Origin: Bacteroidota bacterium
Lineage (GTDB): Bacteria; Bacteroidota; Ignavibacteria; Ignavibacteriales; Melioribacteraceae
Assembly: GCA_018829205.1 (NCBI GenBank)
Contig: JAHJUE010000007.1
Span: 62,001-126,000, forward strand
Length of the DNA stretch: 64,000 bases
Direction: 5' to 3'
Position numbers and translations under genes: made by a program. Below are positions 1 through 22,155 of the stretch, piece by piece (the first letter of the stretch is position 1; the number at the start of each line of letters is the position of its first letter). The notes below the pieces were generated by a model. It had not been told where the DNA came from, searched no databases, and saw nothing but the letters and a program-made list of their open reading frames with translations.

Positions 1-1442
1 ATTACAATTTGATCTTTATTAAACCCAAGCTTCTTGTTTTTAAAATATTCCATTTGATTTGAGACCACACTCATACTAATAATTAGTACAATTGAAATTG
101 TAAACTGCGCAACTACCAATGTTGTTCTGAATAATGATCTGCCGGAACCTGGCTGACTGTTTCCCTTTAACACCGAAGATGGTTTAAAAGAAGAAAGCAG
201 AAATGCAGGGTAACTTCCCGAAATAAGTCCGACAAGCAAAGCTATTAAAAATATTCCGCCGACTGCCGCAAAATTTTGGGTATAATTAACAGCTAATTCT
301 TTACCAATAAAATTATTCAAGGCAGGCAACGCTGCTTCTAGCAATCCGATAGAAATTATAACCGCAAAAAATGTTATGAATAAGGATTCACCGATAAATT
401 GATAAACCAGCTGCTTTTTATAAGCGCCCAAAACTTTACGCATTCCAATTTCTTTTGCTCGTTTGGATGATTTTGCGGTGGCTAAATTCATAAAATTAAT
501 ACAAGCAATTAATAAAATAAAAACCGCAATAGCCGAGAACAAATATACATTAGTAATATCACCATTTTGTTCAAACTCTGAATTAAGATTTGAGTACAAA
601 TGGATGTCGGTTAAATTTTGCAGATGTAATAAATTTGTTTTACTCGGAGGCTGCGTTGGATCATGACCCGTATGTCTTTTAATAGCCGCGCCGTAATGTT
701 TATCAATAAAAGAAGGTATATTTATTTTCAGTTCTTCTTTTAATTTAGCGTTGCCCAATAGTAAATAAGTCGCGTAATTATTGCTGCTCCAGTTCGTTTC
801 AAAAAAGTCCCGGCCAAAAACATTGTACAAAGAAATAAGTGAGCCGAGATAATCAAATTTAAAGTGAGAATTGCGCGGTACATCTTCAAAAACACCTGTA
901 ACAAGCAAATCGGCCTGATCTTCGTAATTAATGGTTTTGCCAATCGGATTTTCATTTCCAAAAAGTTTTTTTGCCATGCTGTGTGAGATTACAACAGAGC
1001 CCGGCTCGGCCAAAGCTGTTTCTTTGTTGCCTTCAATCAATTTAAAATCGAATATTTTAAAAAAATCCTTTTCCGCCCAGTAAAATTTTTCTTCAATAAA
1101 AATCTTATTGTTATATTTTAATTTTGTGTTGTAGTCTGATAAAATTCTTACCATTCTTTCAATTGTTTGCGGATAATCATTAATTAAAAGGGTACCTATC
1201 GGCTGTGCAACTCTCGCGAGATGCAGGTTTGATTCACCATCCTGATTTAACCATTCGCGGGTAACTCTAACAATTCTGTCTTTTTTAGAATGAAATTGAT
1301 CGTAGCTAAGTTCATCTTGCACAAAAAGAAGAATGACTATGGCACACGCTATTCCAACCGCAAGACCGAGAATATTAATTAATGAGAATAGTTTATTTTT
1401 AAAGATGTTTCTGAATGCAATTTTAAAATAACTTTTTAACAT
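1..1442 (-). CDS. FtsX/MacB-type ABC transporter permease (3' end outside window)
   Basis: About 480 codons are open from an ATG at 1442 to the left edge, with no stop. The product starts MLKSYFKIAFRNIFKNK, then a first membrane helix near residues 18-40 (LINILGLAVGIACAIVILLF), a large extracytoplasmic MacB_PCD-like domain, and an FtsX block containing KEIGMRKVLGAYK near residue 330. This is the usual plan of the roughly 800-residue fused permeases common in Bacteroidota and Ignavibacteria, in which two FtsX halves share one chain. The ATPase partner is not in view. It lies 112 bases downstream of a second permease of the same family on the same strand, so the two are probably cotranscribed. 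Substrate is unknown; these proteins typically export small molecules or act as mechanotransmitters. Family assignment is firm. Confidence 0.9.
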   Translation of the reverse strand, partial: MLKSYFKIAFRNIFKNKLFSLINILGLAVGIACAIVILLFVQDELSYDQFHSKKDRIVRVTREWLNQDGESNLHLARVAQPIGTLLINDYPQTIERMVRILSDYNTKLKYNNKIFIEEKFYWAEKDFFKIFDFKLIEGNKETALAEPGSVVISHSMAKKLFGNENPIGKTINYEDQADLLVTGVFEDVPRNSHFKFDYLGSLISLYNVFGRDFFETNWSSNNYATYLLLGNAKLKEELKINIPSFIDKHYGAAIKRHTGHDPTQPPSKTNLLHLQNLTDIHLYSNLNSEFEQNGDITNVYLFSAIAVFILLIACINFMNLATAKSSKRAKEIGMRKVLGAYKKQLVYQFIGESLFITFFAVIISIGLLEAALPALNNFIGKELAVNYTQNFAAVGGIFLIALLVGLISGSYPAFLLSSFKPSSVLKGNSQPGSGRSLFRTTLVVAQFTISIVLIISMSVVSNQMEYFKNKKLGFNKDQIV

Positions 1443-6290: not shown

Positions 6291-6818
6291 ATGGCTGACC
6301 AAAATAAATTAAAAGAAACTTTACTTAATACGGTTTTATCATTAAATAACAATCCGTCTTCGGGAAAAGTATATTTTAAAGCGGACACCGAATTGGTAGA
6401 CGGATTTATAACAAGATCGCAGATAAGACAATTCCATTTTACAGTAGATGAACCCAAACAGCTTGGCGGTACAGATACAGCACCAAATCCAGTTGAATAT
6501 GTTCTTGCCGCATTGGGTACATGCCAGGAAATTGTTTATAAAGCTTACGCTACCGTTCTGGATATTCCGCTCGATGCCGTAAAAGTAAGTGTAAGAGGCA
6601 GCCTTGATTTGCGGGGGTTATTCGGAGTAGATGAAAATGTAAAAGCAGGTTTTGATGAAATTATTTATGAAACTGTATTGGTTAGCAGCGCCGAACAAAG
6701 TAAATTACAGAAGCTAATTAATATAGTTGAGAAAAATTGCCCCGTGCTGGATACATTAACCCGGGCAGTTAGTGTTAAAGGCAGCGTAAAAATTAATAAT
6801 GTCGCCGCCGCGGCTTAA
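6291..6818 (+). CDS. OsmC/Ohr-like peroxiredoxin-fold protein
   Basis: 175 residues from the ATG at 6291, which is preceded by AAAGGAG; an in-frame GTG at 6273 precedes that ribosome binding site and is rejected. The protein has the OsmC-family layout, with the two signature cysteines at about C78 (GTCQEIVYKAY) and C150 (KNCPVLDTL) and the DGFITRSQIRQFHFTVDEP region before them. Known members reduce organic peroxides or act in sulfur chemistry. Its place between metY and metX, inside the SAM-regulated transcript, suggests a role tied to sulfur or thiol metabolism. That is inference; the substrate cannot be read from sequence. Confidence 0.88.
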   Translation: MADQNKLKETLLNTVLSLNNNPSSGKVYFKADTELVDGFITRSQIRQFHFTVDEPKQLGGTDTAPNPVEYVLAALGTCQEIVYKAYATVLDIPLDAVKVSVRGSLDLRGLFGVDENVKAGFDEIIYETVLVSSAEQSKLQKLINIVEKNCPVLDTLTRAVSVKGSVKINNVAAAA

Positions 6819-6836
6819 GATAATATTGAAGGAATT

Positions 6837-8000
6837 ATGCAGATAAAAAATTTAACGACTCTAACGGCAAAAACTAACTTCATTGATTTATTCAATGAAG
6901 TTAGTCCTTTAAATTTAGAATGCGGAATTAATTTACATAATATTAAAGCCGCATATCAAACATACGGCGAATTAAATTCGGAAGGATCAAATGCTGTATT
7001 GATATGCCACGCTCTAACAGGTAACGCTCACGCGGCCGGTTTTATTGAAGAAGAAGAGTATGATAACCAAAGCAGGCCGGATTTATTAAATAAATATTTA
7101 AAAATGTTTAAAGGCAAACCGGGCTGGTGGGATGATGTAATAGGACCCGGGAAAATATTTGACACAAATAAGTATTTTGTTATATGCTCGAACGTGCTGG
7201 GAAGCTGTTACGGCACTACAGGACCCGTAAGCATTAATCCGCAAAACAACAAACCATATCAAGCCGATTTTCCGAAAGTTACCGTTAGAGATATTGTGAA
7301 AGTTCAGAAGGAGCTTATTGATAAACTAGGCGTAAACAAAATTAAAACTATTTCCGGCGGCTCGCTTGGAGGCATGCAGGTATTGGAATGGGCTGTTATG
7401 TATCCTGAAATTGTCGAGTCAATTATACCAATAGCAACATCCGCAAGACACTCTGCCTGGGCAATAGGAATAGGAGAAATAGAACGGCAGGCTATTACAA
7501 ACGATCCGGAGTGGAAAAATGGGTACTACAAAAAACAGCCTGAAAAAGGACTCGCTCTTGCCCGAAAAATAGCAATGCTTACTTACAGAACAATGCCGTC
7601 AATGGAGGAAAAATTCGCGAGACAATTAACCGATCATAAAGATTTTTTTGACGATGAAAATAATTTTCAGATTAATAGTTACCTGGATTATCAAGGTGAT
7701 AAGCTTGTAAAAAGATTCGACGCCAATACTTACATTACTCTTGCAAACATTATGGATTATCACGACATAAGTTTTAACCGCGGGAATATTGACGATGTTT
7801 TAAAATCTATAAAAGCAAAAACACTTTCAATAGGCATTGATTCGGATCTTCTTTACCCGGTTGAAGAACAAAAATTTATTGCCGAAAAAATTACCAACGC
7901 AAAATATGCGGAGATAAAATCCATTCATGGACACGATGCTTTTTTAATTGAGTTTGAACAGTTGAATAAAATAATAACCCCTTTTCTTGCCGAATTATAA
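6837..8000 (+). CDS. metX: Homoserine O-acetyltransferase
   Basis: 387 residues with an alpha/beta-hydrolase fold. It transfers acetyl from acetyl-CoA to homoserine, making the substrate of metY. The nucleophile elbow is GGSLGGMQ with S176. The acidic residue lies in IGIDSDLLYP and the catalytic His in HGHDAFLIE near the C-terminus. The oxyanion region CHALTGNAHAAG and the block NVLGSCYGTTGP are typical of MetX. AAGGA precedes the ATG by 5 bases. Family members can be succinyl- or acetyl-specific; pairing with MetY favours acetyl. It ends convergent to thrC. Confidence 0.94.
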   Translation: MQIKNLTTLTAKTNFIDLFNEVSPLNLECGINLHNIKAAYQTYGELNSEGSNAVLICHALTGNAHAAGFIEEEEYDNQSRPDLLNKYLKMFKGKPGWWDDVIGPGKIFDTNKYFVICSNVLGSCYGTTGPVSINPQNNKPYQADFPKVTVRDIVKVQKELIDKLGVNKIKTISGGSLGGMQVLEWAVMYPEIVESIIPIATSARHSAWAIGIGEIERQAITNDPEWKNGYYKKQPEKGLALARKIAMLTYRTMPSMEEKFARQLTDHKDFFDDENNFQINSYLDYQGDKLVKRFDANTYITLANIMDYHDISFNRGNIDDVLKSIKAKTLSIGIDSDLLYPVEEQKFIAEKITNAKYAEIKSIHGHDAFLIEFEQLNKIITPFLAEL

Positions 8001-8070
8001 TAGACTATTTATAACTGACATTTATTTTACATCATAAGTAAATAGAGGTATGGTTTGAAATATTCTTTAT

Positions 8071-9366
8071 TTAATTGTCCATTAAATATTTTTTAAATTC
8101 ATCATAATTGTTAGATAGAGAGATGGATTGTTTCTCTTTATGAAAACACTCTTCAAGTCTTGCTGGAATTTCAACTTTTTTATTAATTGCGTTTTCTACA
8201 GTATCTAAAAATTTTGCGGGATGTGCGGTTTCTAAAACAATTGAATTTACTTCTTCGATATTTTTTTCACTTAAATAATTCTTTACTGCTAAATATCCCA
8301 CAGCACCGTGCGGGTCAATTATATAATTGTATTTTTCATAAACTTCTTTTATAGCATTTAGTGTTTCTTCATCGGAAAAAGAAGCTGAGTAAATATCATT
8401 CTTAATTTTATTATATGTGTTTTTATAAACGCTTAATATTCTTGCAAAGTTGCTCGGATTACCAACGTCCATTGCGTTTGACAATGTTTGCACTGAATCG
8501 CGAGGTTCAAATAAGGATGTATTAATGTATTTTGTAAATATATCGTTTTTGTTTGTGGCTGAAATAAATTTATCAATAGGCAGTCCCATCATCTTTGCAA
8601 AAAGCCCTGCTGTTAAATTGCCGAGATTACCCGAAGGCACACAAACAATCGTTTCTTTTCTTTTATCCTTTAATTGTTTGTACGCCTCAAAGTAATAAAA
8701 TATTTGAGGAAGAAGTCTGGCAATACTTATTGAGTTAGCCGATGAAAATTTTTTTCGTGATGTTAAATCTTTATCAACAAATGCGCTTTTCACCAAACGC
8801 TGACAGTCGTCAAACGTACCTTTAATTTCCAAAGCGGTTATGTTACCGCCCCATGTTGTTAACTGCTTTTCCTGTATCTCACTCACTTTTCCGCAGGGAT
8901 ACAGAAGAAAAACATTTATATTTTCTTTGCCGAAAAATCCGCCGGCAACCGCACTGCCGGTATCTCCGGAAGTCGCGACTAATATATTTAATTTTTCCTG
9001 ACTCAAATGTGAGATTATTTCGGCCATAAATCTCGCGCCGAAATCTTTAAATGCTAATGTCGGACCGTGAAATAATTCTAAAAGACTAAACTGGTCATTC
9101 AACTTAATCAGAGGCGCCGGAAAGTTTATTGCTCTATTTATTATACTACGCAGTTCTTCTTTATTTATTTCGCCTTCAATAAATTTTATAGCAATATCAA
9201 ATGCAATTTCTTGAAATGAATAATTTTCCAAATTTTTGAAAAAGGAAGGTTCAAACCGAGGAATGAATTCGGGCATAAACAATCCGCCGTCATCGGCTAA
9301 TCCTTTAATTACGGCTTCTTTAAATGTTACGAATTTATTTTCGTTGTTTGTGCTGTAGAATTTCAT
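8071..9366 (-). CDS. thrC: Threonine synthase
   Basis: 431 residues; PLP-dependent conversion of O-phosphohomoserine to threonine. The PLP lysine is K107 in ELFHGPTLAFKDFGARF, a diagnostic ThrC motif. VATSGDTGSAVAGGF is the substrate phosphate loop, and CVPSGNLGNLTAG follows. The N-terminus YSTNNENKFVTFKEAVIKGLADDGGLFMPE is typical of the shorter bacterial form. It is last in the thrA-asd-thrB-thrC unit, separated from thrB by 137 bases that hold a palindromic repeat. Confidence 0.95.
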   Translation of the reverse strand: MKFYSTNNENKFVTFKEAVIKGLADDGGLFMPEFIPRFEPSFFKNLENYSFQEIAFDIAIKFIEGEINKEELRSIINRAINFPAPLIKLNDQFSLLELFHGPTLAFKDFGARFMAEIISHLSQEKLNILVATSGDTGSAVAGGFFGKENINVFLLYPCGKVSEIQEKQLTTWGGNITALEIKGTFDDCQRLVKSAFVDKDLTSRKKFSSANSISIARLLPQIFYYFEAYKQLKDKRKETIVCVPSGNLGNLTAGLFAKMMGLPIDKFISATNKNDIFTKYINTSLFEPRDSVQTLSNAMDVGNPSNFARILSVYKNTYNKIKNDIYSASFSDEETLNAIKEVYEKYNYIIDPHGAVGYLAVKNYLSEKNIEEVNSIVLETAHPAKFLDTVENAINKKVEIPARLEECFHKEKQSISLSNNYDEFKKYLMDN

Positions 9367-9429
9367 CTGTTCGTTTAATTATAATTAAAACATAACATTA
9401 AATTTTTCTTTAATACATAAGCAAATTAC

Positions 9430-9496
9430 TTGTGCCTTAATGGTAAACAATGTTTGGATTCAAGAAATATATTGCCACAAAGGCTCAAAGGCACAA
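9430..9496. repeat. Dispersed palindromic repeat, copy 1
   Basis: The ends TTGTGCCTT (9430-9438) and AAGGCACAA (9488-9496) are perfect inverted repeats. The right part reads TTGCCACAAAGGCTCAAAGG, the complement of the GTGCCTTTGTGGC motif also seen near 48340 and 59480. It lies inside the thr operon between thrB and thrC. Confidence 0.65.
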
Positions 9497-9503
9497 TGAA
9501 AAC

Positions 9504-10436
9504 TTAAATAACTTTTGGGCCGGAAGCATTTACTTTTGAAACATAAACCTTGCTTCTCAAACCGTTTATTGACGCGGCATTTTTCATTGCGCTGCCAATA
9601 ATAGAAGCGGTTTTCAAATTATTACTGAATGCAAAAATTGCCGGACCGGAACCTGAAATACTGCAGGCTACTGCTCCTGAATTTAGAGCTGCTTTTTTAA
9701 TCTCATCAAAACCGGGAATTAACTTCGCTCTTCTGGGCTCGGCAACTTCATCGTGAACCGATCTCCCGATTAATTCAATATCGTTGGTTAATAATCCCGC
9801 AATCAATCCGCCTACATTTCCCCATTGAGTAACGGCTTTTTTAAGCGGAATATTTTTTGGCAATATTTTTCTTGCTTCGCTTGTTTTAATTTCTATCTGC
9901 GGATGTATTATTGTACAGAATAAATTCTTAGGCGCTTTTATGTTAATAATATCGACAGGGTTGTAACCTCTAATCAAAACAAATCCGCCGTATAAACATG
10001 GGGCAACGTTATCAGCGTGAATTGCTTTACTGGCTACCTCTTCTCCTTTTAAAGCGTAATTTAATAATTGTTTTTTAGATAATTTTAAATTCAGAAGTTT
10101 ATTTACCGCGAAAACTCCGGCCACAGCGCTTGCGGCGCTTGAACCTAATCCGCTGCCGAAACCAATTACTTTTTTGATTTTTATATCAAGCCCTACATCA
10201 AGATTTAAATCGTCTAAAATTTCTTTTACCGCTTTCCCGCAAGTATTTTTTTCAACATCCAATGGAAGTTTACCGTTATCGCCTAAAATTTTTGAGATCT
10301 TAATTTCTTTTTTATTTGTCAGCTTAACTGTTATTTCATCGCATATAATATCAACTGCGAAACCCATAACATCAAATCCGCAGCCTACATTTGAAACAGA
10401 TGCCGGGACCGCAACTTTAATAGATTTTAATTTCAT
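9504..10436 (-). CDS. thrB: Homoserine kinase (GHMP family)
   Basis: 310 residues. It phosphorylates homoserine with ATP to O-phosphohomoserine, the substrate of ThrC. The GHMP ATP-binding loop is GFGSGLGSSAASAVAG at residues 92-107. The N-terminus KVAVPASVSNVGCGFDVMGFAV matches motif 1, and ACSISGSGPAIFAF near the C-terminus is motif 3. Its ATG overlaps the asd stop by four bases (ATGA), indicating translational coupling. Confidence 0.95.
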   Translation of the reverse strand: MKLKSIKVAVPASVSNVGCGFDVMGFAVDIICDEITVKLTNKKEIKISKILGDNGKLPLDVEKNTCGKAVKEILDDLNLDVGLDIKIKKVIGFGSGLGSSAASAVAGVFAVNKLLNLKLSKKQLLNYALKGEEVASKAIHADNVAPCLYGGFVLIRGYNPVDIINIKAPKNLFCTIIHPQIEIKTSEARKILPKNIPLKKAVTQWGNVGGLIAGLLTNDIELIGRSVHDEVAEPRRAKLIPGFDEIKKAALNSGAVACSISGSGPAIFAFSNNLKTASIIGSAMKNAASINGLRSKVYVSKVNASGPKVI

Positions 10437-11488
10437 ATATATTTATCCAGATAGCCTTTGGCTTTTAGTAATTCCGCGATTAGTATTGTTCCTCCGGCGG
10501 CACCTCTAACGGTATTATGTGAAAGCACAACGAATTTGAAATCAAATAAATTATCTTCCCTTAATCGTCCCACGGAAACAGCCATTCCGTTTTCAAGATT
10601 TCTATGAATTTTTGGCTGAGGGAATCTGTCCTCTTCAAAATAATGAATCGGCTGTTTTGGCGCGAACGGCAAATTAAGTTGCTGAGCTTCGCTTCTAAAT
10701 TCATTAAGCGTTTTTATAATTTCATGTTTTGCTGCTTTCTTTTTTAAATTAATTTGTACGCATTCCAGATGTCCGTCATTAACAGCAACTCTGTTGCACT
10801 GAGCGCTTAATTTAATTTCAGCGAATTGAATTTTTTCTCCGTTAAGCTTTCCCAATATTTTCAACGGTTCGCTTTCCATTTTACCTTCTTCCCCTCCGAT
10901 AAACGGAATTGCGTTATCCAGAATATCCATGCTTGGAATTCCTGGATAACCTCCGCCGGATATTGCCTGCATTGTAACTACGTTTAACGACTCAATTCCA
11001 AATTTATCTTCAATTGGTTTTAATGCAAGAACCAATCCAATAGTAGAGCAATTCGGGTTGGTAATTATTGCTCCGCCGTTTGCAAATTTCTGTACTTTAA
11101 TTAATTCTAGGTGTTCTGGATTTACTTCGGGAATAACAAGCGGAACGTCTTCGGTGAAACGATGATTTCTAGCATTTGAAATTACAATATATCCGGAGTT
11201 TGCAAAGGACTGTTCTATTTCACCGGCAACATTCGCATCTAACGCGGAAAATATAATTTTAGATTCAAGATTCGCTATGCAGTCTTTTACAATCATTTCA
11301 GCATATTCATTTTTAAGCGGGGACTGCATAATCCAGTTGGCGGCTTCCTTATATTTTTTTCCTGCCGATCTTTCAGAAGCCGCTAATTCATGTATCTCAA
11401 ACCATGGATGATCGGATAACAATTCAATAAATTTTTGTCCGACGCTTCCTGTAGCGCCTAATATTCCAACTTTTATTTTATTATTCAT
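10433..11488 (-). CDS. asd: Aspartate-semialdehyde dehydrogenase
   Basis: 351 residues. It reduces aspartyl phosphate to aspartate semialdehyde with NADPH. The Rossmann glycine motif is GATGSVGQKF at residues 11-20. The catalytic cysteine is C147 in ITNPNCSTIGL, and AQCNRVAVNDGH and the late HNTVRGAAGG block match the fungal/archaeal-like Asd subfamily also found in FCB bacteria. One base separates it from thrA; it overlaps thrB by four bases. The set supplies homoserine for both threonine and methionine. Confidence 0.94.
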   Translation of the reverse strand: MNNKIKVGILGATGSVGQKFIELLSDHPWFEIHELAASERSAGKKYKEAANWIMQSPLKNEYAEMIVKDCIANLESKIIFSALDANVAGEIEQSFANSGYIVISNARNHRFTEDVPLVIPEVNPEHLELIKVQKFANGGAIITNPNCSTIGLVLALKPIEDKFGIESLNVVTMQAISGGGYPGIPSMDILDNAIPFIGGEEGKMESEPLKILGKLNGEKIQFAEIKLSAQCNRVAVNDGHLECVQINLKKKAAKHEIIKTLNEFRSEAQQLNLPFAPKQPIHYFEEDRFPQPKIHRNLENGMAVSVGRLREDNLFDFKFVVLSHNTVRGAAGGTILIAELLKAKGYLDKYI

Positions 11489-11489
11489 T

Positions 11490-13946
11490 TTAACCTGCCG
11501 GATTTGAAATTTTTAAAATATCTGACAATACTCCCGCGGCGGTATATCTTGCCCCAGCGCCTCTTCCGCTTAATGTTAGAGGTTTTATATTATTAAATTT
11601 TGTTGTAATGGATACGATATTATCATTGCCATTTAGTCCGTAAAAAGGATGTTCTTTCCCGATCTCTTCAATTCCAATTTTTGCTTTGCCGTTTTCATAC
11701 TTAGCAATATAACAAAGCACTTTCCCTTTTTTAGCTGCGGCGGTTTTTAGTTTTTCAAAATAATCGTCCGCAGTGAATAATTCGTTCATAAACTGGGCAA
11801 CAGATTTTTTACCTCTTAGTTTTTTCGGGATAAGATTTTCAACCTCAACATCCTTTAGCTCAAGCTGCGCTCCTGCTTCCCGCGCCAGTATTAGTAATTT
11901 TCGTGCTACATCAAGTCCGTTCAGATCATCTCGCGGATCCGGTTCAGTGAAGCCGGCTTCTTTTGCATATGCGACTATTTCACTAAACTTCTTATTTTCT
12001 TTTATGGAATTAAAAATATAGCTTAGGGTTCCGGATAAAACTCCTTCAATTTTTAAAATTTCATCGCCGGTTGCAAAAAGCTCTTTTATGTTTTTGATTA
12101 CCGGCATAGCCGAGCAGACATTTGTTTCATATAAAAATTTAACATTATTTCTTTTCGCAATATTGCGCAGCTTATTGTAATAGTTTATATCCCCAGAGTT
12201 TGCAATTTTATTCGGAGTAACAATCGAAAAATTAGATGAGAGAAATCCTTCATAATACGGAACCCAGTTGCTCCCTGCTGTAGCGTCAATTATAATTGTA
12301 TTGGGCAGATTCAGTTTCTTCATTTTATCGAAGTAACCTTGCTCATTTATTTTTGATCCGGAATTTTGAAGTAACTCTTTCCAATTATTTACGTTAATTC
12401 CTTTTTCATCGAACAGCATTTTTTTGCTGTTTCCTAATCCGACTAGTTTTAATCTTATGTTTAAACTTTTCTTTATATATTCGTCCTCATCAAGTATAAG
12501 TTTTAATAATTCACCTCCGACTAAACCCGGACCAACCAGAAACATATTAATTGTTTTGGGAACCTTTGTAAACAAACCGTCGTGAAGCACGTTAAGCGCT
12601 TTTTTCAACTGATCTTTTTCAATAACAAGTGAAATGTTTAATTCAGACGACCCCTGAGCAATCGCCACAATATTGATACCGTTACTTCCTAATGACTGAA
12701 CTACCTGGCCCGCGACTTTAGGAGTCTTTCTGAAGTCTTCACCCACGACTGCAATAATAGAATGGTTATCCTCAACAACAACTTCATTTATAATTTTATC
12801 TTTTATTTCATAATTAAATTCTTCCTCAATTGCTTTTTTTGCTTCGCTTCCGTACTGGGGATGAACAGCAATGCAGATAGTATGTTCCGAGGAACCCTGT
12901 GTAATTAATATTACGCTTATTTCCCTTTGCGCAAGCGAGCCGAATAGTCTTGATGAAATTCCCGGCACACCTATCATACCGCTTCCGGAAATCCGCAGTA
13001 GAGTAATATCATCAATTGAAGAAATTCCCTTTATATTAAATGGTACCGAAGGTTCTTTCTCTAATATTACTGTTCCTTTAAATGAGGGATTAAAAGTATT
13101 TTTGATTATAATTTTAACTTTCTTTTCAAGAGCCGGCTGCATTGTAGGCGGATATATAACCTTTGCGCCGAAGTGAGAAAGTTCCATAGCTTCTTCATAT
13201 GTAACGGCATTTATCGAATATGCGTTTTCTACTTTTCTTGGATCGGCAGTTAATATTCCGTCTACATCCGTCCATATTTCTATTGCGTCTACCTTTAACG
13301 CGGCACCCAGTATAGAAGCTGTAAAATCTGAACCGCCTCTTCCAAGCGTTGTTGTTTCACCTTCATTGTTTGATCCAATAAATCCGGTTACAACCTGAGT
13401 TTTGTTGTGTGATTTATAATAATTTTTAATTCTTCTGTTTGTTATAATAAAATCAACTCTTGCGCAGCTGAAATTGCTGTCGGTTTTAATAATACTCCGC
13501 GCGTCTAAAAAGTCACAGTCAATTCCTTTATGCTTCATTGCTTCAGAAATAATTACACATGAAAGTCTTTCGCCGAAACTCAGAATATTATCCATAGTTT
13601 TATTCGTAAGTTCCTTTAGAAGAAAAACTCCCTGTGCGTAATCCTGAAGATTATTAAATAATTCATCTACTCTTTGAATCAATAATTTATTCTTTGCCTG
13701 TGGAATTAACTCATTAACGGCATCAATATGTTTCAGTTTCAGATTTTCAATATCAGCGATATAACTGAAATCGCCAATAACTGCTTTTTTCCCCAATGAA
13801 ATTAGACTGTCGGTTACACCTTGAAATGCAGAAAAAACAACTGCTGTTAATTGTTTTTTTGCGGCATACTCATGAAGGATATCAATCACCTGCATAATTC
13901 TTTGAGGTGAGCCTACCGATGAACCGCCGAATTTTAGAAGTTTCAT
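11490..13946 (-). CDS. thrA: Bifunctional aspartokinase/homoserine dehydrogenase
   Basis: 818 residues, the usual length of the fused enzyme. Residues 1-290 form the aspartokinase domain (KFGGSSVGSPQRI at the start, GRGGSDFTASILGAAL and IWTDVDGILTADPR further on). Residues 300-455 hold ACT regulatory domains (SGSGMIGVPGISSRLF; SQGSSELNISLVIE-like block). From about 460 comes homoserine dehydrogenase with the nucleotide-binding MFLVGPGLVGGELL and the catalytic region LSGTLSYIFN...PDPRDDLNGLDVARKL. It feeds homoserine to thrB and metX. ACT domains suggest allosteric inhibition, probably by threonine (family knowledge). First gene of the operon. Confidence 0.95.
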   Translation of the reverse strand: MKLLKFGGSSVGSPQRIMQVIDILHEYAAKKQLTAVVFSAFQGVTDSLISLGKKAVIGDFSYIADIENLKLKHIDAVNELIPQAKNKLLIQRVDELFNNLQDYAQGVFLLKELTNKTMDNILSFGERLSCVIISEAMKHKGIDCDFLDARSIIKTDSNFSCARVDFIITNRRIKNYYKSHNKTQVVTGFIGSNNEGETTTLGRGGSDFTASILGAALKVDAIEIWTDVDGILTADPRKVENAYSINAVTYEEAMELSHFGAKVIYPPTMQPALEKKVKIIIKNTFNPSFKGTVILEKEPSVPFNIKGISSIDDITLLRISGSGMIGVPGISSRLFGSLAQREISVILITQGSSEHTICIAVHPQYGSEAKKAIEEEFNYEIKDKIINEVVVEDNHSIIAVVGEDFRKTPKVAGQVVQSLGSNGINIVAIAQGSSELNISLVIEKDQLKKALNVLHDGLFTKVPKTINMFLVGPGLVGGELLKLILDEDEYIKKSLNIRLKLVGLGNSKKMLFDEKGINVNNWKELLQNSGSKINEQGYFDKMKKLNLPNTIIIDATAGSNWVPYYEGFLSSNFSIVTPNKIANSGDINYYNKLRNIAKRNNVKFLYETNVCSAMPVIKNIKELFATGDEILKIEGVLSGTLSYIFNSIKENKKFSEIVAYAKEAGFTEPDPRDDLNGLDVARKLLILAREAGAQLELKDVEVENLIPKKLRGKKSVAQFMNELFTADDYFEKLKTAAAKKGKVLCYIAKYENGKAKIGIEEIGKEHPFYGLNGNDNIVSITTKFNNIKPLTLSGRGAGARYTAAGVLSDILKISNPAG

Positions 13947-13987
13947 TTTATAATTTCACACATTTATTAATTTTAAAATTAGTTGCA

Positions 13988-14016
13988 ATTATAACATATA
14001 ATGAATGAGTTAGCAA
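13988..14016 (-). promoter_or_regulatory. Sigma-70-type promoter of the thr operon
   Basis: On the minus strand TTGCTA (14016-14011) is followed by a 17-base spacer and a perfect -10 TATAAT (13993-13988). The implied 5' UTR is about 35 bases, too short for a leader-peptide attenuator. It is back to back with the ilv promoter. Confidence 0.65.
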
Positions 14017-14146
14017 GTTATTCTCAATATAAAGTCTAATTCCAACTAATATTCACACATTATTTTTAAAAACATGTATATATATTTATTAATATGAATA
14101 ATTTATTCGATTTGATTTTTTTTTAGGACATTTGATGTTTTTTGTG

Positions 14147-14175
14147 TTGACAAAAGGAACATGCCGCTTTATATT
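14147..14175 (+). promoter_or_regulatory. Sigma-70-type promoter of the ilv-leu operon
   Basis: A perfect -35 TTGACA (14147-14152), 17-base spacer, and -10 TATATT (14170-14175, five of six). The implied start near 14182 lies about 13 bases before the leader-peptide ATG at 14195. This also rules out the in-frame upstream ATGs at 14132 and 14135 as the leader start. Confidence 0.75.
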
Positions 14176-14194
14176 TGTTGCAATTCAAAAACAC

Positions 14195-14356
14195 ATGTAT
14201 AACACGAATAAAAATATTGCTGCTTTCATAAATTCATTAAATGATGAACAGAGCCGTGTTATATCTATTTCTATTAACCCTTCTTTAGATATTATCGCGA
14301 TTATTGGAATTATTATTATTCTGAGCCTGCTGGGTATTAATACCCTGGTGGGCTAA
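14195..14356 (+). CDS. Branched-chain amino acid leader peptide of the ilv operon
   Basis: 53 codons. The product starts MYNTNKNIAAFINSL and carries 14 Ile, 6 Leu and 2 Val. Residues 22-53 alone have 19 of 32 such codons, including IIAIIGIIIILSLLG. It starts about 13 bases after a consensus promoter, has no Shine-Dalgarno sequence, and ends 135 bases before ilvD. This matches the layout of ilv attenuators, in which the ribosome stalls when charged Ile, Leu or Val tRNA is scarce. The last codons contain a perfect palindrome GGGTATTAATACCC (14332-14345) inside a longer imperfect hairpin (14324-14354), so ribosome progress would directly melt it. No homologue was searched; the role is inferred from content and position. 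Confidence 0.8.
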   Translation: MYNTNKNIAAFINSLNDEQSRVISISINPSLDIIAIIGIIIILSLLGINTLVG

Positions 14357-14491
14357 AATAGTATATGTCGATTCCGATAAAATCATAAAATACATTCCAA
14401 TATTTACAATCTCAAAAAAAATTTTATAAACTCGGGGTCGACCTGAATCCGAATCGTTATATCTGAAAGAAGAAAAACTTTCGGGTAAAAT
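14357..14491 (+). promoter_or_regulatory. Leader-to-ilvD spacer with competing pairings, no U-tract terminator
   Basis: No GC stem followed by a T run is present, so the mechanism is not the textbook one. Just before the ilvD ATG, TTCGGGT (14480-14486) can pair with ACCTGAA (14441-14447), and CTTTCGG (14478-14484) with CTGAAAG (14463-14469). These two pairings exclude each other and cover the initiation region. CGATTC (14369-14374) can pair with GAATCG (14451-14456). Pairings were found by eye; no energies were computed. Confidence 0.4.
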
Positions 14492-16201
14492 ATGAGATCA
14501 GATTTAATTAAGTCCGGGTTTGATAAAGCTCCTCACAGAAGTCTTTTAAAAGCTACCGGCGTAATAAAAAGTGATGCCGATTTCAAAAAGCCGTTTATCG
14601 GAGTATGTAATTCATATATAGATTTAATTCCCGGTCACGTTCATTTGCAGGAATTTGGAAGAATAGTCAAAGAGGTAGTCCGTGAAGCAGGAGGAGTGCC
14701 GTTTGAGTTTAATACAATTGGAGTCGACGACGGTATTGCAATGGGACATATCGGAATGCGTTATTCGCTTGCGAGCAGAGAGTTAATTGCCGACAGTGTT
14801 GAAACAGTGACAGAAGCGCACCGATTAGATGGTTTGGTCTGCATCACAAATTGTGATAAAATTGTTCCCGGAATGTTGATGGCTGCTGCGAGAATAAATA
14901 TTCCTGTAATATTTATTTCGGGCGGACCTATGAAAGCAGGCAAAACTTCAACTGGAGAAAAGAGCGATCTAATATCTGTGTTTGAAGGTGTTGGAAAATT
15001 TCAAACAGGTGAAATTAATGAAACTCAGTTAAAAGAATTAGAAGATGTAAGCTGTCCTACCTGCGGATCATGTTCAGGAATGTTCACAGCTAATTCAATG
15101 AATTGTTTGATGGAAGCATTAGGATTAGCATTGCCGGGCAACGGCTCCATTCTTGCAGTTGATCCTAAACGTCATGAATTAGCAAGAAAAGCGGCGAAAC
15201 AAATTATATACCTAGTTGAAAATGATATTAAACCTTCCGATATAATCTCTAAACAATCTTTCCGGAATGCATTCGCTCTTGATATGGCAATGGGCGGAAG
15301 CACCAACACAATTTTACATTCGCTCGCAATTGCTCTCGAAGCCGGTTTCGAATTTGATTTACAAGAGCTTAATGAAATTGCAGAACGTACACCTTATATC
15401 TGTAAAGTTAGTCCTGCAACCTCCAAGGTGCATATGGAAGATGTTGATAGAGCTGGAGGTATTTCAGCGATCTTAAATGAATTATCAAAAACTGACGGAA
15501 TACTTGATTTATTATGTCCAACCGTCACAGGTAATACTCTTGGTGAAAATATAAAAGGATGTGAATCTAAAGATAGAGAAGTGATAAGATCTGTTGAAGA
15601 TCCGTATTCACCTGTCGGCGGACTCGCGGTATTGTTCGGTAATTTAGCCCCGGAAGGCTCTGTTGTTAAAACAGGCGCAGTAGCTCCTCAAATGCTTGTA
15701 CATAAAGGTCCGGCAAGAATTTATGAATCTCAGGAAAAAGCTTTGCTTGGAATTTATGCAAAAGAAGTTAAACCAGGAGATGTTGTAATTATTAGATACG
15801 AAGGTCCAAGCGGAGGACCCGGTATGCCCGAGATGTTAAGCCCTACAAGCGCAATAATGGGTATGGGCCTTGGTGATAAAGTAGCATTAATAACCGACGG
15901 AAGATTCTCCGGCGGAACACGCGGAGCGTGCATTGGACATGTATCGCCCGAAGCCGCGGCTTACGGTCCAATTGCCGCAGTAAAGGAAGGAGATATTATT
16001 TCAATAGATATCCCGAACAAAAGTTTAAATGTAGAGTTATCGGAAGAAGAAATTACTAGAAGATTAGATCTGCTGCCGCCGTTCGAACCTAAAATTACAA
16101 AAGGATATTTAGGAAGATATGCGCAGATGGTGACCTCGGCAAGCAAAGGTGCCGTGCTAAGTTTACAAAAACTAAAACAATATAGGAAGGAATTGTCATG
16201 A
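14492..16201 (+). CDS. ilvD: Dihydroxy-acid dehydratase
   Basis: 569 residues. It dehydrates 2,3-dihydroxyisovalerate and 2,3-dihydroxy-3-methylvalerate to the 2-oxo acids of valine and isoleucine. Iron-sulfur ligand regions are visible: [31 protein letters not shown] and [19 protein letters not shown]. The C-terminal signature [18 protein letters not shown] is intact. No good Shine-Dalgarno sequence precedes the ATG, unlike the later genes of the operon, which fits control of initiation by the leader. The last four bases overlap ilvB (ATGA). Confidence 0.96.
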
Positions 16202-17916
16202 GCAATGGAACAAAAAAATTATCCGGCGCGGACATATTTTTTGAATGTCTGAAACGGGAAGGAGTCGATACAATATTCGGATATCCCGGAGGGGCGGTTC
16301 TGAAATTATATGAAAAATTATATGATGTGGATTTTCTTGAGCATATCCTTGTTCGTCACGAACAAGGGGCAACCCACGCTGCCGAAGGTTACGCAAAAGC
16401 GACTGGTAAAGTCGGTGTCGTCCTCGTAACTTCAGGTCCCGGAGCAACAAATACAGTTACCGGTATTGCCGACGCATATATGGACAGCGTTCCAATTGTT
16501 GTATTTACCGGACAAGTTCCTTCGCATTTAATCGGCAACGATGCTTTTCAGGAAGCCGATATTGTCGGAATAACCAGGCCAATAACTAAACACAATTTTT
16601 TAGTACGTGATATAAATGAATTAGCAACAACAATTCGTAAAGCTTTTTATATTGCCTCAACGGGCAGACCGGGTCCGGTTGTTGTAGATTTACCGAAAGA
16701 TGTAATCGCTTCGGAATGTGAATTCTCATATCCAGACGATGTTGATATTAAAGGCTATAAACCGAAATACAAAGGGCATTATAACCAGATAAAAAAAGCA
16801 GCCGAAATAATCAGCAACGCAAAACGACCCCTACTATACGTTGGCGGAGGAGTTATTATGTCAGGCGGATCGCGCGAACTTGCTTTGTTCGCAAAAGAAA
16901 ATAATCTTCCTGTAACAATGACTCTTCAAGGACTGGGCGCATTCCCGGGAACCGACGAACAGTCACTTGGCATGCTCGGAATGCACGGTACTTACTGGGC
17001 TAATCAAGCAGTTAATAATTGCGATGTATTGGTTTCTCTCGGCGCCAGATTCGATGATAGAGTTACAGGAAAGGTAGATACTTTTGCAGTAAACGCATTT
17101 AAAATTCATGTTGATATTGATCCTACCTGTATCGATAAAAATATAGTTGTTGATCTCCCGATCGTAGGAGATGTTAAACACGTTTTAGCAGAACTTGCCG
17201 CTGAAATACAAAAAACTCCCGATGTAAAAGAGTGGTGGAATCAAATTAATGAATGGAAAGAAGAATGTCCTATGGCATATGAAGATGCCGACGGAAAATT
17301 GAGAACAGAATATGTTATTGAACAAATTTCAAAAAAGACAAAAGGTGAGGCCGTAATTGTAACTGATGTCGGGCAGCATCAAATGTGGACTGCCCAATAT
17401 TATCAGTTTAATCATCCGCGTTCTAACTTAACAAGCGGAGGGTTGGGTACTATGGGTTTTTCCGTGCCTGCTGCAATAGGTGCTTCGTTCGGAATTAAAG
17501 ACAGACCAATAATTTCAATTAGCGGCGACGGCGGATTCCAAATGAATATTCAGGAATTAATTACTGCCGTAGCTTATAAACTCCCGATAAAATTTATAAT
17601 TATAAATAACAGCTTCCTCGGAATGGTAAGGCAATGGCAGGAATTGTTTCACGCGGAAAAATATAGTTTTACCGATCTGAGCGCGAGCAACCCTGATTTT
17701 GTAAAAGTTGGACAGGCATTCGGAATCGAATCTTATTCAACAGATGATCCGAAAGAAGTTGATACGTTAATTGACAAAGCTATGTCAATTAACGACCGCC
17801 CTGTTCTTCTTGAATTTAAAGTAGTAAAAGAGAACATGGTTTTTCCGATGGTGCCGAGCGGCGCGTCTATTTCAGATATGATTGTTAAAAGATTAAACCC
17901 AAAGAGGATGATGTAA
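16198..17916 (+). CDS. ilvB: Acetolactate synthase, large (catalytic) subunit
   Basis: 572 residues; TPP- and FAD-dependent condensation of pyruvate with pyruvate or 2-oxobutyrate. The N-terminal TPP domain has [15 protein letters not shown] and the catalytic glutamate in [13 protein letters not shown]. The TPP-magnesium motif is [15 protein letters not shown]...[10 protein letters not shown]. The FAD-domain block ([28 protein letters not shown]) is typical of anabolic AHAS rather than catabolic ALS. It is translationally coupled to ilvD and is followed one base later by its regulatory subunit. Confidence 0.96.
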
Positions 17917-17917
17917 T

Positions 17918-18430
17918 ATGAAACACACAATTTCAGTTTTAGTGGAAAACAGGTTTGGGGCTTTTGACCGCGTTGCTACAATGTTCAGCGGCAAAGGCTT
18001 CAATATAAAAAGTATATCTATCGGTGAAACTGAATTTTCAGATGTTTCACGAATGACAATTGTTACCGATGGCGACGAACAAATACTTAATCAAGTCGTG
18101 AAACAGCTCAATAGATTAATTGATACTATTAAAGTTATTGATCTTTCCCATACAAATCATATTCAAAGAGAATTGGCTTTAATTAAAGTCGGACTCCAAA
18201 AAACAACAATGGAAGAAATAAAAAACATAACTGATATCTTCAGGGGAAAAATTGTCGATATAAATAATAAGTCGATGATGATTGAAGTTACCGGCCCCCC
18301 CGAAAAAATTGACGCGGCGGTAAACGTGCTTATGCCTTTCGGCATTAAAGAAATGGCTCGTTCCGGAACCGTTGCTTTAAACAGAGGCGAACAATTAAAT
18401 CAAAAAAACGAATTCGTACAAACTAATTGA
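17918..18430 (+). CDS. ilvN: Acetolactate synthase, small (regulatory) subunit
   Basis: 170 residues. An N-terminal ACT domain ([31 protein letters not shown]) occupies about residues 1-75, followed by the C-terminal ALS_ss domain with [22 protein letters not shown]. The length equals the 160-175-residue IlvH/IlvN class. It activates the large subunit and normally confers valine feedback inhibition. The start follows the ilvB stop by one base, with AAAGAGG inside the ilvB end serving as ribosome binding site. Confidence 0.95.
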
Positions 18431-18440
18431 GGTATATAAA

Positions 18441-19457
18441 ATGAAAGTTTATTATGACCAGGACTCATCACTGGAATCGCTGCAAAATAAAAAAATCGCA
18501 GTCCTCGGCTTTGGAAGTCAGGGACATGCTCATTCTCTAAATTTAAAAGAAAGCGGATTAAATGTTTGCGTAGGTTTAAGAAAAGACAGCGCCAGATGGC
18601 CTATAGCGGAAGCCGCGGGACTGCAGGTTAAAGAAGTTGATGAAGCGGCCGAATGGGCAGATGTAGTAATGGTGCTTCTCCCCGATCAGCATCAGAAAGC
18701 TGTTTATGAAAAATCCGTAGCTCCGCATCTTAAAGAAGGTGATACATTAGTATTCGCGCATGGTTTTAATATTCATTATAAATGGATTAACCCGCCTAAA
18801 AATGTTAACGTTATGATGATTGCGCCTAAAAGTCCGGGTCATCTTGTAAGAAGAACTTATCTTGAAGGCAACGGTGTTCCCTGTTTAATAGCTATTCATC
18901 AGGACTATACAGGCAATACTAAAGAAATGGCATTGGCATGGGCAAAAGGAATAGGCGGAACTACAGCAGGCGTTATTGAAACTACTTTTAAAGACGAAAC
19001 CGAAACTGATTTATTCGGCGAACAATCTGTCCTTTGCGGCGGTTCTGCTCAATTAATTAAAACCGGATTTGAAGTATTGACCGAAGCCGGATATCCGCCT
19101 GAACTGGCATATTTTGAATGTATGCACGAACTTAAACTTATAGTCGATCTCTATTATGAAGGAGGTCTTTCAAGAATGAACTATTCGGTAAGCGATACGG
19201 CTGAATACGGAGGATTAACAAGAGGAAGCAGGCTTATAACCGAAGAAACAAAAAAAGAAATGAAAAAAATTCTAACTGAAATTCAAGACGGAAGTTTTGC
19301 CGAAGAATGGCGAAAAGAAAACGAAGCCGGTCTTCCAAAATTAACTGAGTTAAGAAAAAAAGATAATGATCATATAATTGAGAAAGTAGGATCCAAATTA
19401 CGCGGAATGATGACCTGGCTGCTTAAGAAAAATGTTAAAGAAGAGGTTGGAGTATGA
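18441..19457 (+). CDS. ilvC: Ketol-acid reductoisomerase, class I
   Basis: 338 residues, the short class I form. It isomerises and reduces acetolactate and acetohydroxybutyrate with NAD(P)H and magnesium. The Rossmann motif is [19 protein letters not shown]. Metal ligands lie in the [17 protein letters not shown] block and the [18 protein letters not shown] helix. The cofactor loop reads [11 protein letters not shown]; its two serine/arginine-type positions suggest NADPH, but this is only a reading of a short loop. The stop overlaps leuB by four bases. Confidence 0.96.
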
Positions 19458-20551
19458 CAAAAAAAATCACATTGCTTCCCGGGGACGGTATTGGTCCGGA
19501 AGTAATTGAATCGGCTGTAAATGTTATAAAACATGTAGCAGAAAAATTCGGAATTCAATTTGAATTTGAAACCCGTTTAATCGGAGGAATATCCTATGAT
19601 ACTTACGGCACTCCTTTAACCGATGAAACCCTTCAGACATGTTATGATTCTGACGCCGTCCTGCTTGGAGCCGTGGGCGGTTATAAATGGGAAGAACTAC
19701 CTCATCATTTAAAACCAGAAGCAGCTCTCCTAAAACTTAGGAAATCATTAGGCTTGTTCGCAAATATCCGCCCGGCAAAAATTTATTCATCATTAGTTGA
19801 TTCTTCTTCTCTTAAAAAAGAAGTAATTAATGGAACTGACTTTGTTGTATTCCGCGAGCTGACTGGCGGAATTTATTTCGGAGAACCACGCGGTTACGAT
19901 AATGACAAAGGCTGGAACACAATGATTTATACCAGGCCTGAAATTGAAAGAATCGCAAAACTTGCATTCGAAACCGCGCAAAGAAGAAAAGGAACTCTTA
20001 CTTCAGTGGATAAAGCTAATGTTCTTGAAGTATCACAATTATGGAGAAAGGTTGTTGCCGAAACGGCAAAAAATTATCCTGATGTAGAGTTAAGCAATAT
20101 GTACGTGGATAATGCGGCTATGCAGATTGTTAAGGACCCGAAACAATTCGACGTAATTCTTACTTCAAACTTGTTCGGTGATATTTTAAGCGATATTTCA
20201 GGAATGATTACAGGAAGTTTAGGAATGCTTCCTTCTGCAAGCCTGGGAACCCGTTATTCATTGTACGAGCCGGTTCACGGCAGCGCGCCCGATATTGCCG
20301 GTAAAGGCATTGCTAATCCTATCGCCGCAATAGCTTCTGCCGCCATGATGTTTGAACATTCTTTCGAAATGGGAAAAGCTTCAGAATTAATTATTGAATC
20401 AATTGAAAAAGCTTTGAAGCAGGGATTAAGAACATCCGACATTGCACAAAAGGGCGATAAAGTTGTAACTACTCAGGATTTAACCAAAGCAATTATTGGC
20501 AATTTTGATTTAATATATAATGAACAAGCTTTAGGCGTATTTACTTTATAA
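19454..20551 (+). CDS. leuB: 3-Isopropylmalate dehydrogenase
   Basis: 365 residues. It oxidises 3-isopropylmalate to the leucine 2-oxo acid with NAD. It starts [35 protein letters not shown] is the substrate/metal block; [34 protein letters not shown] is the family signature; [18 protein letters not shown] is the NAD site. The aspartate two residues into VDNAAMQ is a conserved metal-site residue. It overlaps ilvC by four bases. Confidence 0.96.
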
Positions 20552-20574
20552 TTTCTTAAATGAGGATAACAAAA

Positions 20575-22155
20575 ATGGAAAATCAAGTTTTAATTTTTGA
20601 TACAACATTACGGGACGGCGAACAGTCGCCCGGGGCTTCATTAAATGTTTTTGAGAAATTGGAAATAGCCAGACAGCTTGAAAAACTGAACGTCGATATC
20701 ATCGAAGCGGGTTTCCCCGTTTCTTCACCTACACAATTTGAAGCTGTTAAAAGAATTGCCGGTGAGGTAGGAGTTATTATAGCTGCCCTTTCACGCGCTA
20801 AAGAGATAGATATTAAATCTGCATATGACGCAATTAAAAATGCTTCTAAAAAAAGAATACATACATTTTCCAGTACATCGGATTATCATATAATCGGGAA
20901 ATTCGGTCACGAGAGATACGGAAATTCTCTTGCCGAAAAAAGAAAAACCGTTCTGCAGATGTCCTATGATATGGTTAAATACGCTAAAACTTTTGTTGAT
21001 GATGTTGAGTTTTCAGCTGAAGATGCCGGAAGAACGGATATTGTTTATCTGGCCGAAGTGATTGAAGCCGCTATCGAAGCAGGTGCGACTACTGTAAATA
21101 TTCCCGATACAACTGGATACACCATGCCTTCAGAATTTGGAAATAAAATTGTAGAATTAAAGAAACGGGTTAAGAATATAAACAATGCAATTATAAGCGT
21201 TCACTGCCATAATGATTTAGGCTTGGCAGTCGCAAACTCTTTGGCCGGAGTAGAAAACGGCGCGCGCCAGGTTGAATGCACAATAAACGGAATCGGAGAA
21301 CGCGCCGGAAACGCATCACTTGAAGAATTTGTTATGGCCTTAAATGTGCGTAAAGATCTTTACAAATATTTTACGAATATAGATACAACCGAAATATTTA
21401 ATACAAGCCGCATGGTATCTGCATTTACAGGCGTTATTGTGCAGCCGAATAAAGCAATTGTTGGTGAAAACGCTTTCGCGCATGAATCCGGAATTCATCA
21501 GGATGGTATGTTAAAAAACCGCGAAACCTATGAGATTATGACTCCGGAAACTGTCGGCGTGAACAAAACTAAAATTGTTTTGGGCAGGCATTCAGGCAGA
21601 CACGGATTAAAATCACGTCTTGAAGAACTCGGTTATAATTTGAAAGAAGAAGAACTGCAGAAGGTATATGATGCTTTTACAAAACTTGCCGATAAAAAGA
21701 AAGAAGTTTTTGACGACGATTTACGGGTTTTAATGGGCGATGAAGTATTCCAGGAACAAGGTGCATACGAGCTGCTTACAATTCAGGTTAACGCGGGAAC
21801 TAATTCAATTCCCACGGCGACAGTTGTTATTAAAAACAAAGAAGTGCAGTATACCGACTCTGCAACCGGCGACGGCCCTGTCGATGCTTTATTTAACGCA
21901 ATTGACAGAGCCTTAAATTTCCAGCCCGCGGTAGAATCTTATCAAGTCCGCTCGGTTACATCGGGCAGAGAAGCCTTAGGTGAAGTGCTTGTTAGAATCA
22001 GATATAAAGATAATTCTTTTACAGGCCGCGGTGTTTCTACAGATATTATTGAAGCGAGCGCTAAAGCATATCTTCAGGCTATCAATCATCAGGAATTATT
22101 TATTATAGAACAGAATTCTATTACTCAGAATGAAACTGTAACCCAGGCAGTGTAA
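20575..22155 (+). CDS. leuA: 2-Isopropylmalate synthase
   Basis: 526 residues from the ATG at 20575. The in-frame ATG at 20560 is less likely because GAGGA (20563-20567) sits correctly for 20575. It condenses 2-oxoisovalerate with acetyl-CoA. The catalytic TIM barrel starts [16 protein letters not shown]; the metal-binding HxH lies in [38 protein letters not shown] links to the C-terminal LeuA allosteric dimer domain (about 390-510), so leucine inhibition is likely. It is distinct from the paralogue at 24203, which is citramalate synthase. Confidence 0.95.

Follow-up and report, generated by a model that had tools for sequence, protein, structure and literature searches.

In its textbook form, attenuation of an amino acid operon acts by terminating transcription; in the leader-peptide attenuators of the enteric ilv and leu operons, the last element is an intrinsic terminator that includes a U-run. 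In translational attenuators of the erm type, a stalled ribosome frees a masked Shine-Dalgarno (SD) sequence, and the signal is an antibiotic. T-boxes read tRNA directly. In the passages of PMC10272879 that concern branched-chain amino acid genes, the upstream ORF of Corynebacterium ilvBNC (ilvB-II motif) is described as having a terminator, and the ilvB-OMG and ilvB motifs are given as further suspected upstream ORFs. The sections of PMC1262725 on actinobacterial leaders describe the LEU element, in which a run of leucine codons pairs with the SD of leuA, as well as terminator-less cys leaders of Mycobacterium and ileS T-boxes that sequester the SD. Leader-peptide attenuation of amino acid operons also receives a one-sentence mention in the relevant part of a flavobacterial transcriptome paper (PMC9723704).

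The element discussed here precedes ilvD in the window, i.e. the whole stretch of 64,000 nucleotides that was analysed. At gathering scores, Rfam, T-box included, gave no match at the leader region, and a known Rfam family was rejected for the element on this ground; relaxing the threshold to E 10 brought up four unrelated families, of which the best had E 0.61. No published description of the element was recognised in the literature on ilvD and amino acid leaders, Bacteroidetes, Chloroflexi, Ignavibacteria and translational attenuation, of which few subscription papers were covered.

Operon, promoter and leader ORF

The branched-chain amino acid operon ilvD-ilvB-ilvN-ilvC-leuB-leuA-leuC-leuD-cimA occupies positions 14492-25798. 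The features up to and including its genes are as follows.

14147-14177, + strand: promoter TTGACA-17-TATATT(TG), with TTGACA at 14147-14152, a 17-nt spacer and TATATT at 14170-14175 (11 of 12 consensus matches)
14195-14356, + strand: leader ORF of 53 codons (ATG 14195, TAA 14356) with an Ile/Leu-rich C-terminus, near-leaderless and without SD
14321-14355, + strand: hairpin at the end of the leader ORF, flanked by segments 1 and 2 and including the palindrome at 14332-14345
14492-16201, + strand: ilvD, first gene of the operon (TIGR00110, above cut-off)
16198-25798, + strand: ilvB, ilvN, ilvC, leuB, leuA, leuC, leuD and cimA (NCBIfam; leuC and leuD above the cut-offs of subfamily models only)

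A gene for a fused aspartokinase/homoserine dehydrogenase is divergent from the operon, and inspection by eye of seven short minus-strand ORFs revealed no Thr-rich leader before it. A threonine deaminase candidate scores 297 bits against TIGR01127 (cut-off 379), covering positions 1-291 of 380; contig C9 ends about 500 bases away from it. Matches to ilvD were obtained in 43 of 79 genomes of the family and 74 of 147 of the order, or in 34/56 and 61/109, respectively, of the more complete ones. The genomes that lack a match, about half, may reflect auxotrophy or assembly gaps.

The leader peptide, MYNTNKNIAAFINSLNDEQSRVISISINPSLDIIAIIGIIIILSLLGINTLVG, contains 14 Ile, 6 Leu and 2 Val. Its ATG lies 19 nt after the -10 hexamer and thus about 13 nt after the inferred transcription start near 14182. 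Given this short distance and the missing SD, the 5' end of the mRNA is probably very close to the leader. A scan of window positions 1-20000 placed the promoter among the top two promoter-like sites. A first-pass annotation of the same DNA had reported an Ile-rich ORF of 53 codons before ilvD, a near-perfect promoter about 13 bases ahead of it and a perfect palindrome in the last leader codons; a letter-by-letter check agrees on each point, the palindrome GGGTATTAATACCC near the 3' end of the leader being exact.

For comparison, ilvD upstream regions were gathered from the family, the order and the class, in addition to contigs of named genomes. Among named records, the closest hits of the window were Melioribacter-like and other Ignavibacteria ones. 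The same annotation had pointed to conservation of the ORF across relatives as a check, and the leader is indeed present in 64 of 68 same-type ilvD loci from whole genomes (30/30 for L001-L030, 34/38 for L111-L148), no leader being found in the remaining four (L125, L138, L139, L146). Measured from the first start after the promoter, the leader ORFs mostly comprise 46-59 codons; they are rich in Ile, Leu and Val, and mostly stop 96-138 nt 5' of ilvD. Their N-terminal sequences vary widely; the C-terminal part is strongly hydrophobic, a character that is conserved. A loose promoter pattern, TTGNNN-15..19-TANNNT, precedes the leader in all 77 loci scored, the best match being taken in each; TTGACA is exact in 69 of them and the spacing is 17 in 66.

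Of 63 related loci, which were selected because they have a leader, 61 contain upstream of ilvD an ORF of 30-90 codons in which a stretch of 12 residues includes nine or more Ile, Leu or Val; among dinucleotide shuffles, the number is 12 of 1890. Within the window, 6 of 321 comparable short ORFs reach this value, the leader among them; hence it is conservation, and not composition alone, that singles out the leader. The arrangement is that of a ribosome-mediated leader-peptide attenuator, with an ORF carrying a run of product codons behind a promoter and ahead of the biosynthetic operon. Codon usage in the leader tails differs from that of the window's operon: Leu is encoded by CTA in 169 of 356 cases, a codon rare in the operon genes (18 of 303), and Ile by ATA in 35 of 471 versus 83 of 280. 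The window's own leader tail uses the Leu codon CTG. Sensing would become sharper through rare Leu codons in the leader, although CTA also fits the pairings described below.

Records named Calditrichia, KSB1, Neomarinimicrobiota and Chloroflexota carry similar leaders ahead of ilvD. Five Neomarinimicrobiota leaders (L046, L055, L057, L061, L071) share a conserved INLLILVIIGLAVQIA-like tail, which in some Neomarinimicrobiota leaders is followed by a GGTAGG...CCTACC-like pair. Many Chloroflexota ilvD genes (L074-L110) have their own conserved leader, e.g., LSLIVVLLAVLIIKDLFSVRMATVRVK, plus an intrinsic terminator.

A switch of three segments

Side-by-side reading of the upstream regions allowed three segments to be recognised, to which a weak fourth can be added.

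14306-14311, + strand: segment 1, GGAATT, in-frame Gly-Ile codons, pairing with segment 2
14367-14377, + strand: segment 2, GTCGATTCCGA, just 3' of the leader stop
14432-14442, + strand: segment 3, TCGGGGTCGAC, pairing with segment 2 (duplex about -18 kcal/mol)
14449-14452, + strand: segment 4, CCGA, pairing weakly with 14432-14435 to form the 3:4 hairpin

Segments 1, 2 and 3 constitute the core switch. The helices 1:2 and 2:3 share segment 2, are therefore mutually exclusive, and covary. This is the strongest conserved feature of the element, and it was missed in the first-pass account of the pairings. With one of the two exclusive helices formed partly by leader codons, the switch has the form expected of a ribosome-mediated attenuator.

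Pairing statistics were calculated for loci in which a leader was found (at least eight Ile, Leu or Val in 12 residues), namely 71 distinct loci, 63 of them of the window's type. L038 and L141 were left out of the swap tests, the test of the P4 hairpin and the helix count for 14441-14447/14480-14486, leaving 61 loci. Alignment A1 holds 57 and A2 50 of the 63 loci, and A3 holds 16 of 17 class-level loci. In 22 loci (L149-L170), ilvD is divergent or shows weak similarity; of these, the 11 with a recognised leader were used (L150, L151 and nine class-level loci), and the Neomarinimicrobiota leaders L046, L055, L057, L061, L063, L065 and L071 entered the terminator count only.

Across the 63 loci, segment 1 is, with few exceptions, a Gly-Ile codon pair 12-21 codons from the leader end (in frame 0 in 59), segment 2 starts 3-9 nt past the leader stop, and segment 3 ends 37-72 nt 5' of ilvD, or 147 nt in L038. 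Helix 1:2 forms all six pairs in 47 of 63 loci and helix 2:3 at least eight of ten in 60 of 63, in both cases with an arm search that itself favoured pairing. When the pairing energies of a locus's own segments were compared with those of swapped segments, z was -7.5 for 1:2 and -9.1 for 2:3 in the 61 loci, and -3.1 and -8.0 in 11 divergent representatives; the 3:4 hairpin gave -3.4 and -2.6. Kinship among loci is ignored in all of these values. On alignment A1 (57 loci), 86.6% of the cells of 2:3 are paired and 10 of 13 pairs are changed on both sides, and 0 of 500 shuffles reach either value. For 1:2 on the same alignment, 90.4% of the cells are paired with a covariation score of 0.140 versus 0.087 (0/500 shuffles), and three of eight pairs are changed on both sides, a count that 90 of 500 shuffles also attain. 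Covariation is clearest at the synonymous third position of the Gly codon, which mostly tracks segment 2 (GGG/CCC, GGA/TCC, GGT/ACC): in 57 loci, the combination is GC in 44, AU in five, UA in one and unpaired in seven. The alignment tests likewise take no account of kinship, and one clade (L014, L015, L020-L022) has mismatches within the 1:2 helix.

Segment 2 also pairs better with the SD/start region of its own ilvD than with that of other species (z -4.0 in 61 loci, -3.1 in 11 representatives), for which no sensible model is at hand and which is possibly caused by relatedness. Swap tests in the same two sets gave no clear result for pairings of the loop with the SD, of segment 1 with the SD, or of the segment 3 flank with the P4 arm.

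Terminator-like sites between leader and ilvD are rare in this lineage

A search for terminator-like sites in positions 13900-14600 returned none, the shuffle mean being 0.4, and an intrinsic terminator was rejected for this genome. The 3:4 hairpin thus does not form the T-tract terminator of a classical transcription attenuator of the enteric ilv/leu type. That no GC hairpin with a T tract precedes ilvD had been noted at the outset, and this turns out to hold lineage-wide and not for this genome alone. Among the 63 loci of the window's type, a loose terminator pattern is matched past the leader stop in four (L005, L007, L010, L135), each time on the 3:4 hairpin; the corresponding shuffle rate is 2.1% without the leader tail, and 5.7% and 6.3% with it (two runs).

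Two leaders found before a divergent ilvD in the same order (L150, L151) each have a strong terminator. Terminator matches occur in 6 of 17 class-level loci, four of them inside the leader ORF and two (L147, L156) at segment 3, where a hairpin is followed by a T-rich stretch. The Neomarinimicrobiota leaders show two matches in seven, one of these past the leader stop. In a set of 28 leaders, all Chloroflexota bar L100, which is not named so and is a weak match, a terminator-like site is present in 27 (shuffles 12-13%) and after the leader stop in 26 (shuffles 5%).

Elsewhere in the window, a SAM riboswitch (4680-4791), followed by a terminator hairpin with nine T (both within 4680-4860), lies ahead of a frame with ATG 4907. 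The organism therefore has ordinary T-tract terminators.

The start region of ilvD

In the window, the initiation region of ilvD is enclosed in a further hairpin.

14461-14486, + strand: hairpin P4, ATCTGAAAG / CTTTCGGGT, masking the ilvD initiation region (-10.2 kcal/mol)

P4 is the strongest local fold among 47 gene starts of the window, for which the median is -2.0 kcal/mol, and the ilvD start ranks fourth among them by opening cost. The own-versus-swapped comparison gives z -5.4 in the 26 loci that keep the 5' arm, the window included, and a weak -1.9 in the other 35. The SD, a weak CGGGT, in line with the earlier remark that no clear SD is present, thus lies within a conserved hairpin, as in SD-sequestering systems. 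Pairing of a switch segment with the SD, as seen in the class-level relatives described below, is unsupported in the window's type: z for segment 3 with the SD is -0.1 across 61 loci, with weak support in the 11 representatives (z -2.3). Two pairings at the ilvD start had been named in the first-pass annotation. Both are possible, but only one is supported, that of 14463-14469 (CTGAAAG) with 14478-14484 (CTTTCGG), which belongs to P4. The other, of 14441-14447 (ACCTGAA) with 14480-14486 (TTCGGGT), is not conserved, since helices of at least six pairs occur in 7 of 61 loci versus 7% of shuffles. Pairing of the 3' end of segment 3 with the SD was accordingly rejected as a conserved feature of the window's type (z -0.1; 7/61), though it is possible in this genome.

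Folding calculations gave no uniform link between the switch and the start. The SD core is barely more paired than controls (0.59 versus 0.52). The effect of segment 2 on the opening cost lacks a common sign, with 18 of 63 loci gaining and 22 of 63 losing more than 0.5 kcal/mol; in this genome, the gain is 6.3 kcal/mol. With a ribosome imitated by a mask, opening the window's ilvD start costs 8.4-12.6 kcal/mol for a stall at Ile and 8.8-12.0 kcal/mol for a ribosome at the stop, which is no clear difference; the lowest cost in equilibrium folding, 2.0-6.0 kcal/mol, is that of the RNA without a ribosome. Equilibrium folding with imitated ribosomes thus showed no consistent coupling of P4 to the switch in this genome.

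Class-level relatives

In 17 loci of other families within the class, segments 2 and 3 read GCCAGAGG...CCTCTGGC or nearly so, and the leaders are quite different. These relatives keep the same architecture with its letters replaced. Own-versus-swapped z values are -3.5 for the leader with segment 2, -3.7 for segments 2 and 3, and -2.5 for segment 3 with the SD; against shuffled sequences, they are -7.3, -19.8 and -7.2. Segment 3 pairs with the ilvD SD at -12.3 kcal/mol, compared with -11.1 for swapped and -7.9 for shuffled partners. With segment 2 removed, the cost of opening the ilvD start rises by 1.6-10.4 kcal/mol in 16 of the 17 loci. Judged by its sequence, this layout has the anatomy of a translational attenuator, and because segment 3 pairs with the SD of ilvD, the output in these relatives is probably translation initiation.

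Copies at other genes

With a cut-off of E 0.01, R1, a covariance model of helix 2:3 of the window's type, finds matches in 71 of the 146 genomes from the order. By position, the match is at ilvD in 54 of these 71 genomes; as the model was built from loci including these, most matches at ilvD were expected, and those elsewhere were not. The window's own genome has a single match, at ilvD (E 1.2e-6). In 10 of the 17 other genomes, ilvB follows a few hundred bases 3' (L171, L173, L176, L177, L181, L183, L188, L229, L231, L233), and in G141 the element is directly 5' of an apparent ilvB start at a contig end (L228). The matches in G007, G116 and G121 (L230, L227, L234) look like chance, and the loci in G091 and G097 fell outside the locus reading. 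A second model of the class type, R2, matches 25 of 294 genomes.

Other copies precede related genes. Element and leader occur before leuB-leuA (L225) and before the gene for the glutamate synthase large subunit (L207, L224), in L226 without a convincing leader; in L232, leader, element, the first ilvD codons and a stop are followed by glutamate synthase. The glutamate synthase (gltB) assignments are based on fragment matches below the model cut-off. In L223, the element precedes cimA, with a leader less rich in Ile and Leu, and class-level variant copies precede cimA and gltB. No obvious target follows the copies in L221 and L222. The relatedness of the targets supports a role in branched-chain metabolism.

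The copies before ilvB have an additional component. In genus g40 and one g53 genome of the order (among L171-L191, L229, L231 and L233), the element is followed by an ORF of 45-67 codons, which is not ilvD, and then by ilvB. This short ORF has an ilvD-like start (V/MRS) in 9 of 10 loci and, as judged by eye, keeps the SD and the P4 arms (TCTGA...TCAGAGG) in 8 of 10. Its end is rich in Ile and Leu in about half of the loci (L173, L176, L177, L231, L233). A helix over its stop is present in six loci with paired changes between them, GCATCTAAG/CTTAGATGC, with variants in L183, L188 and L233; none was clear in L181, L229 and L231, L171 not being counted. The short ORF may represent a second leader derived from an ilvD start.

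Proposed mechanism and alternatives

The element is interpreted, with somewhat better than even confidence, as a ribosome-mediated attenuator of a branched-chain amino acid operon that works without an intrinsic terminator. The first-pass description of an Ile-rich leader before an ilv-leu-cimA operon, lacking the textbook terminator of the enteric leaders, is supported across the lineage. Transcription would start a few bases 5' of the leader ATG, and a ribosome would translate the leader. From the sequence, we infer the stalling, the direction of control and the output in this genome as follows. When charged Ile (or Leu) tRNA is scarce, the ribosome would stall in the Ile run just past segment 1 and cover it, leaving segment 2 free for segment 3; helix 2:3 would represent the on state. 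When amino acids are plentiful, the ribosome would reach the stop, cover the start of segment 2 and leave, upon which 1:2 would form. Segment 3 would then be free for other partners, which is the predicted off state. In the class-level relatives, this other partner would be the SD of ilvD. In this genome, segment 3 could pair with segment 4 or the start region, with the ilvD start held in P4. Attenuation at the level of translation, which the first-pass annotation had suggested beside an action through Rho, is well supported in the class-level relatives but only inferred for this genome, where these relatives and the lack of a terminator make translation the most likely output.

The main rival to a translational output is Rho-dependent termination by the same switch, which is considered unlikely. 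With the leader translated and the ilvD start closed, naked RNA would admit Rho, and helix 2:3 or translation of ilvD would protect the RNA between leader and ilvD. The lack of a T-tract terminator in this genome is compatible with such an output, the loop of 2:3 is very poor in G (4.7%), and the short ORF of g40, mostly with an ilvD-like start and kept before ilvB, would suit polarity control. However, Rho sites are expected in C-rich stretches, whereas this loop is A-rich with only 14% C, and the pairing of segment 3 with the SD in the relatives favours translation.

Somewhat more doubtful still is the idea that, in the same switch, the 3:4 hairpin is a transcription terminator with a poor T-tract or none. 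It would account for the recurrence of a short hairpin at this place (e.g., TTCGGG-loop-CCCGAA; z -3.4), and both the four terminator-like matches in 63 loci (2.1% of shuffles) and the class-level loci L147 and L156 have their match at the position of 3:4. On the other hand, 59 of 63 loci lack such a site, the 3:4 hairpin of the window is weak (duplex about -6 kcal/mol) with no T-tract after it, and ordinary T-tract terminators are used by the window's SAM riboswitch and the relatives L150 and L151. That the short ORF is expressed for itself as a small hydrophobic peptide, the hairpins being incidental, would fit its conserved hydrophobic C-terminus but is highly improbable, as the N-terminal sequences differ widely, the third bases of the Gly codons track an intergenic segment, and the element is found upstream of several branched-chain metabolism genes.

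If the attenuator acts on translation, its sensing half, the stalling leader, would be separable from its output half, and a lineage with ordinary terminators would have chosen otherwise for this operon. A translational output is directly testable through the contrast within one class and with the Chloroflexota, and the covariance models make the element searchable in many uncultured genomes. A broader reading, given slightly less than an even chance, is that of an undescribed multi-phylum class of amino-acid-sensing translational attenuators, in which the architecture is kept and the sequence replaced. As a module, it would have spread to ilvD, ilvB, leuB, cimA and glutamate synthase, and one genus would possess a two-stage cascade, where a decayed ilvD start, equipped with a 2:3 helix of its own, acts as second leader under the control of the first.

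Comparison with known systems

The element shares with the enteric ilv and leu attenuators and with Corynebacterium ilvBNC, as far as the latter is described in the passages mentioned above (PMC10272879), a leader rich in Ile, Leu and Val, alternative hairpins and an expected induction upon starvation. In contrast to these, it has no terminator here, and few are found in its relatives. The Chloroflexota leaders likewise are Ile/Leu/Val-rich and stand immediately before a related ilvD, but have a terminator-like site (27/28 in the set above, L100 included), and their peptide and RNA sequences differ.

On the translational reading, the window's element would share with the erm type the freeing of a masked SD, whereas its signal would be a shortage of charged tRNA. 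Like the SD-sequestering ileS T-boxes, as portrayed in the sections of PMC1262725 cited above, it would combine an Ile signal and a sequestered SD with the lack of a terminator; unlike it, those T-boxes need no leader ORF, and no T-box match is found here. The LEU element and the cys leaders of Mycobacterium resemble it in having a leader ORF without a terminator. They concern other genes and involve a pseudoknot with a base stem, and the same sections make no mention of a three-segment 1:2/2:3 switch (PMC1262725).
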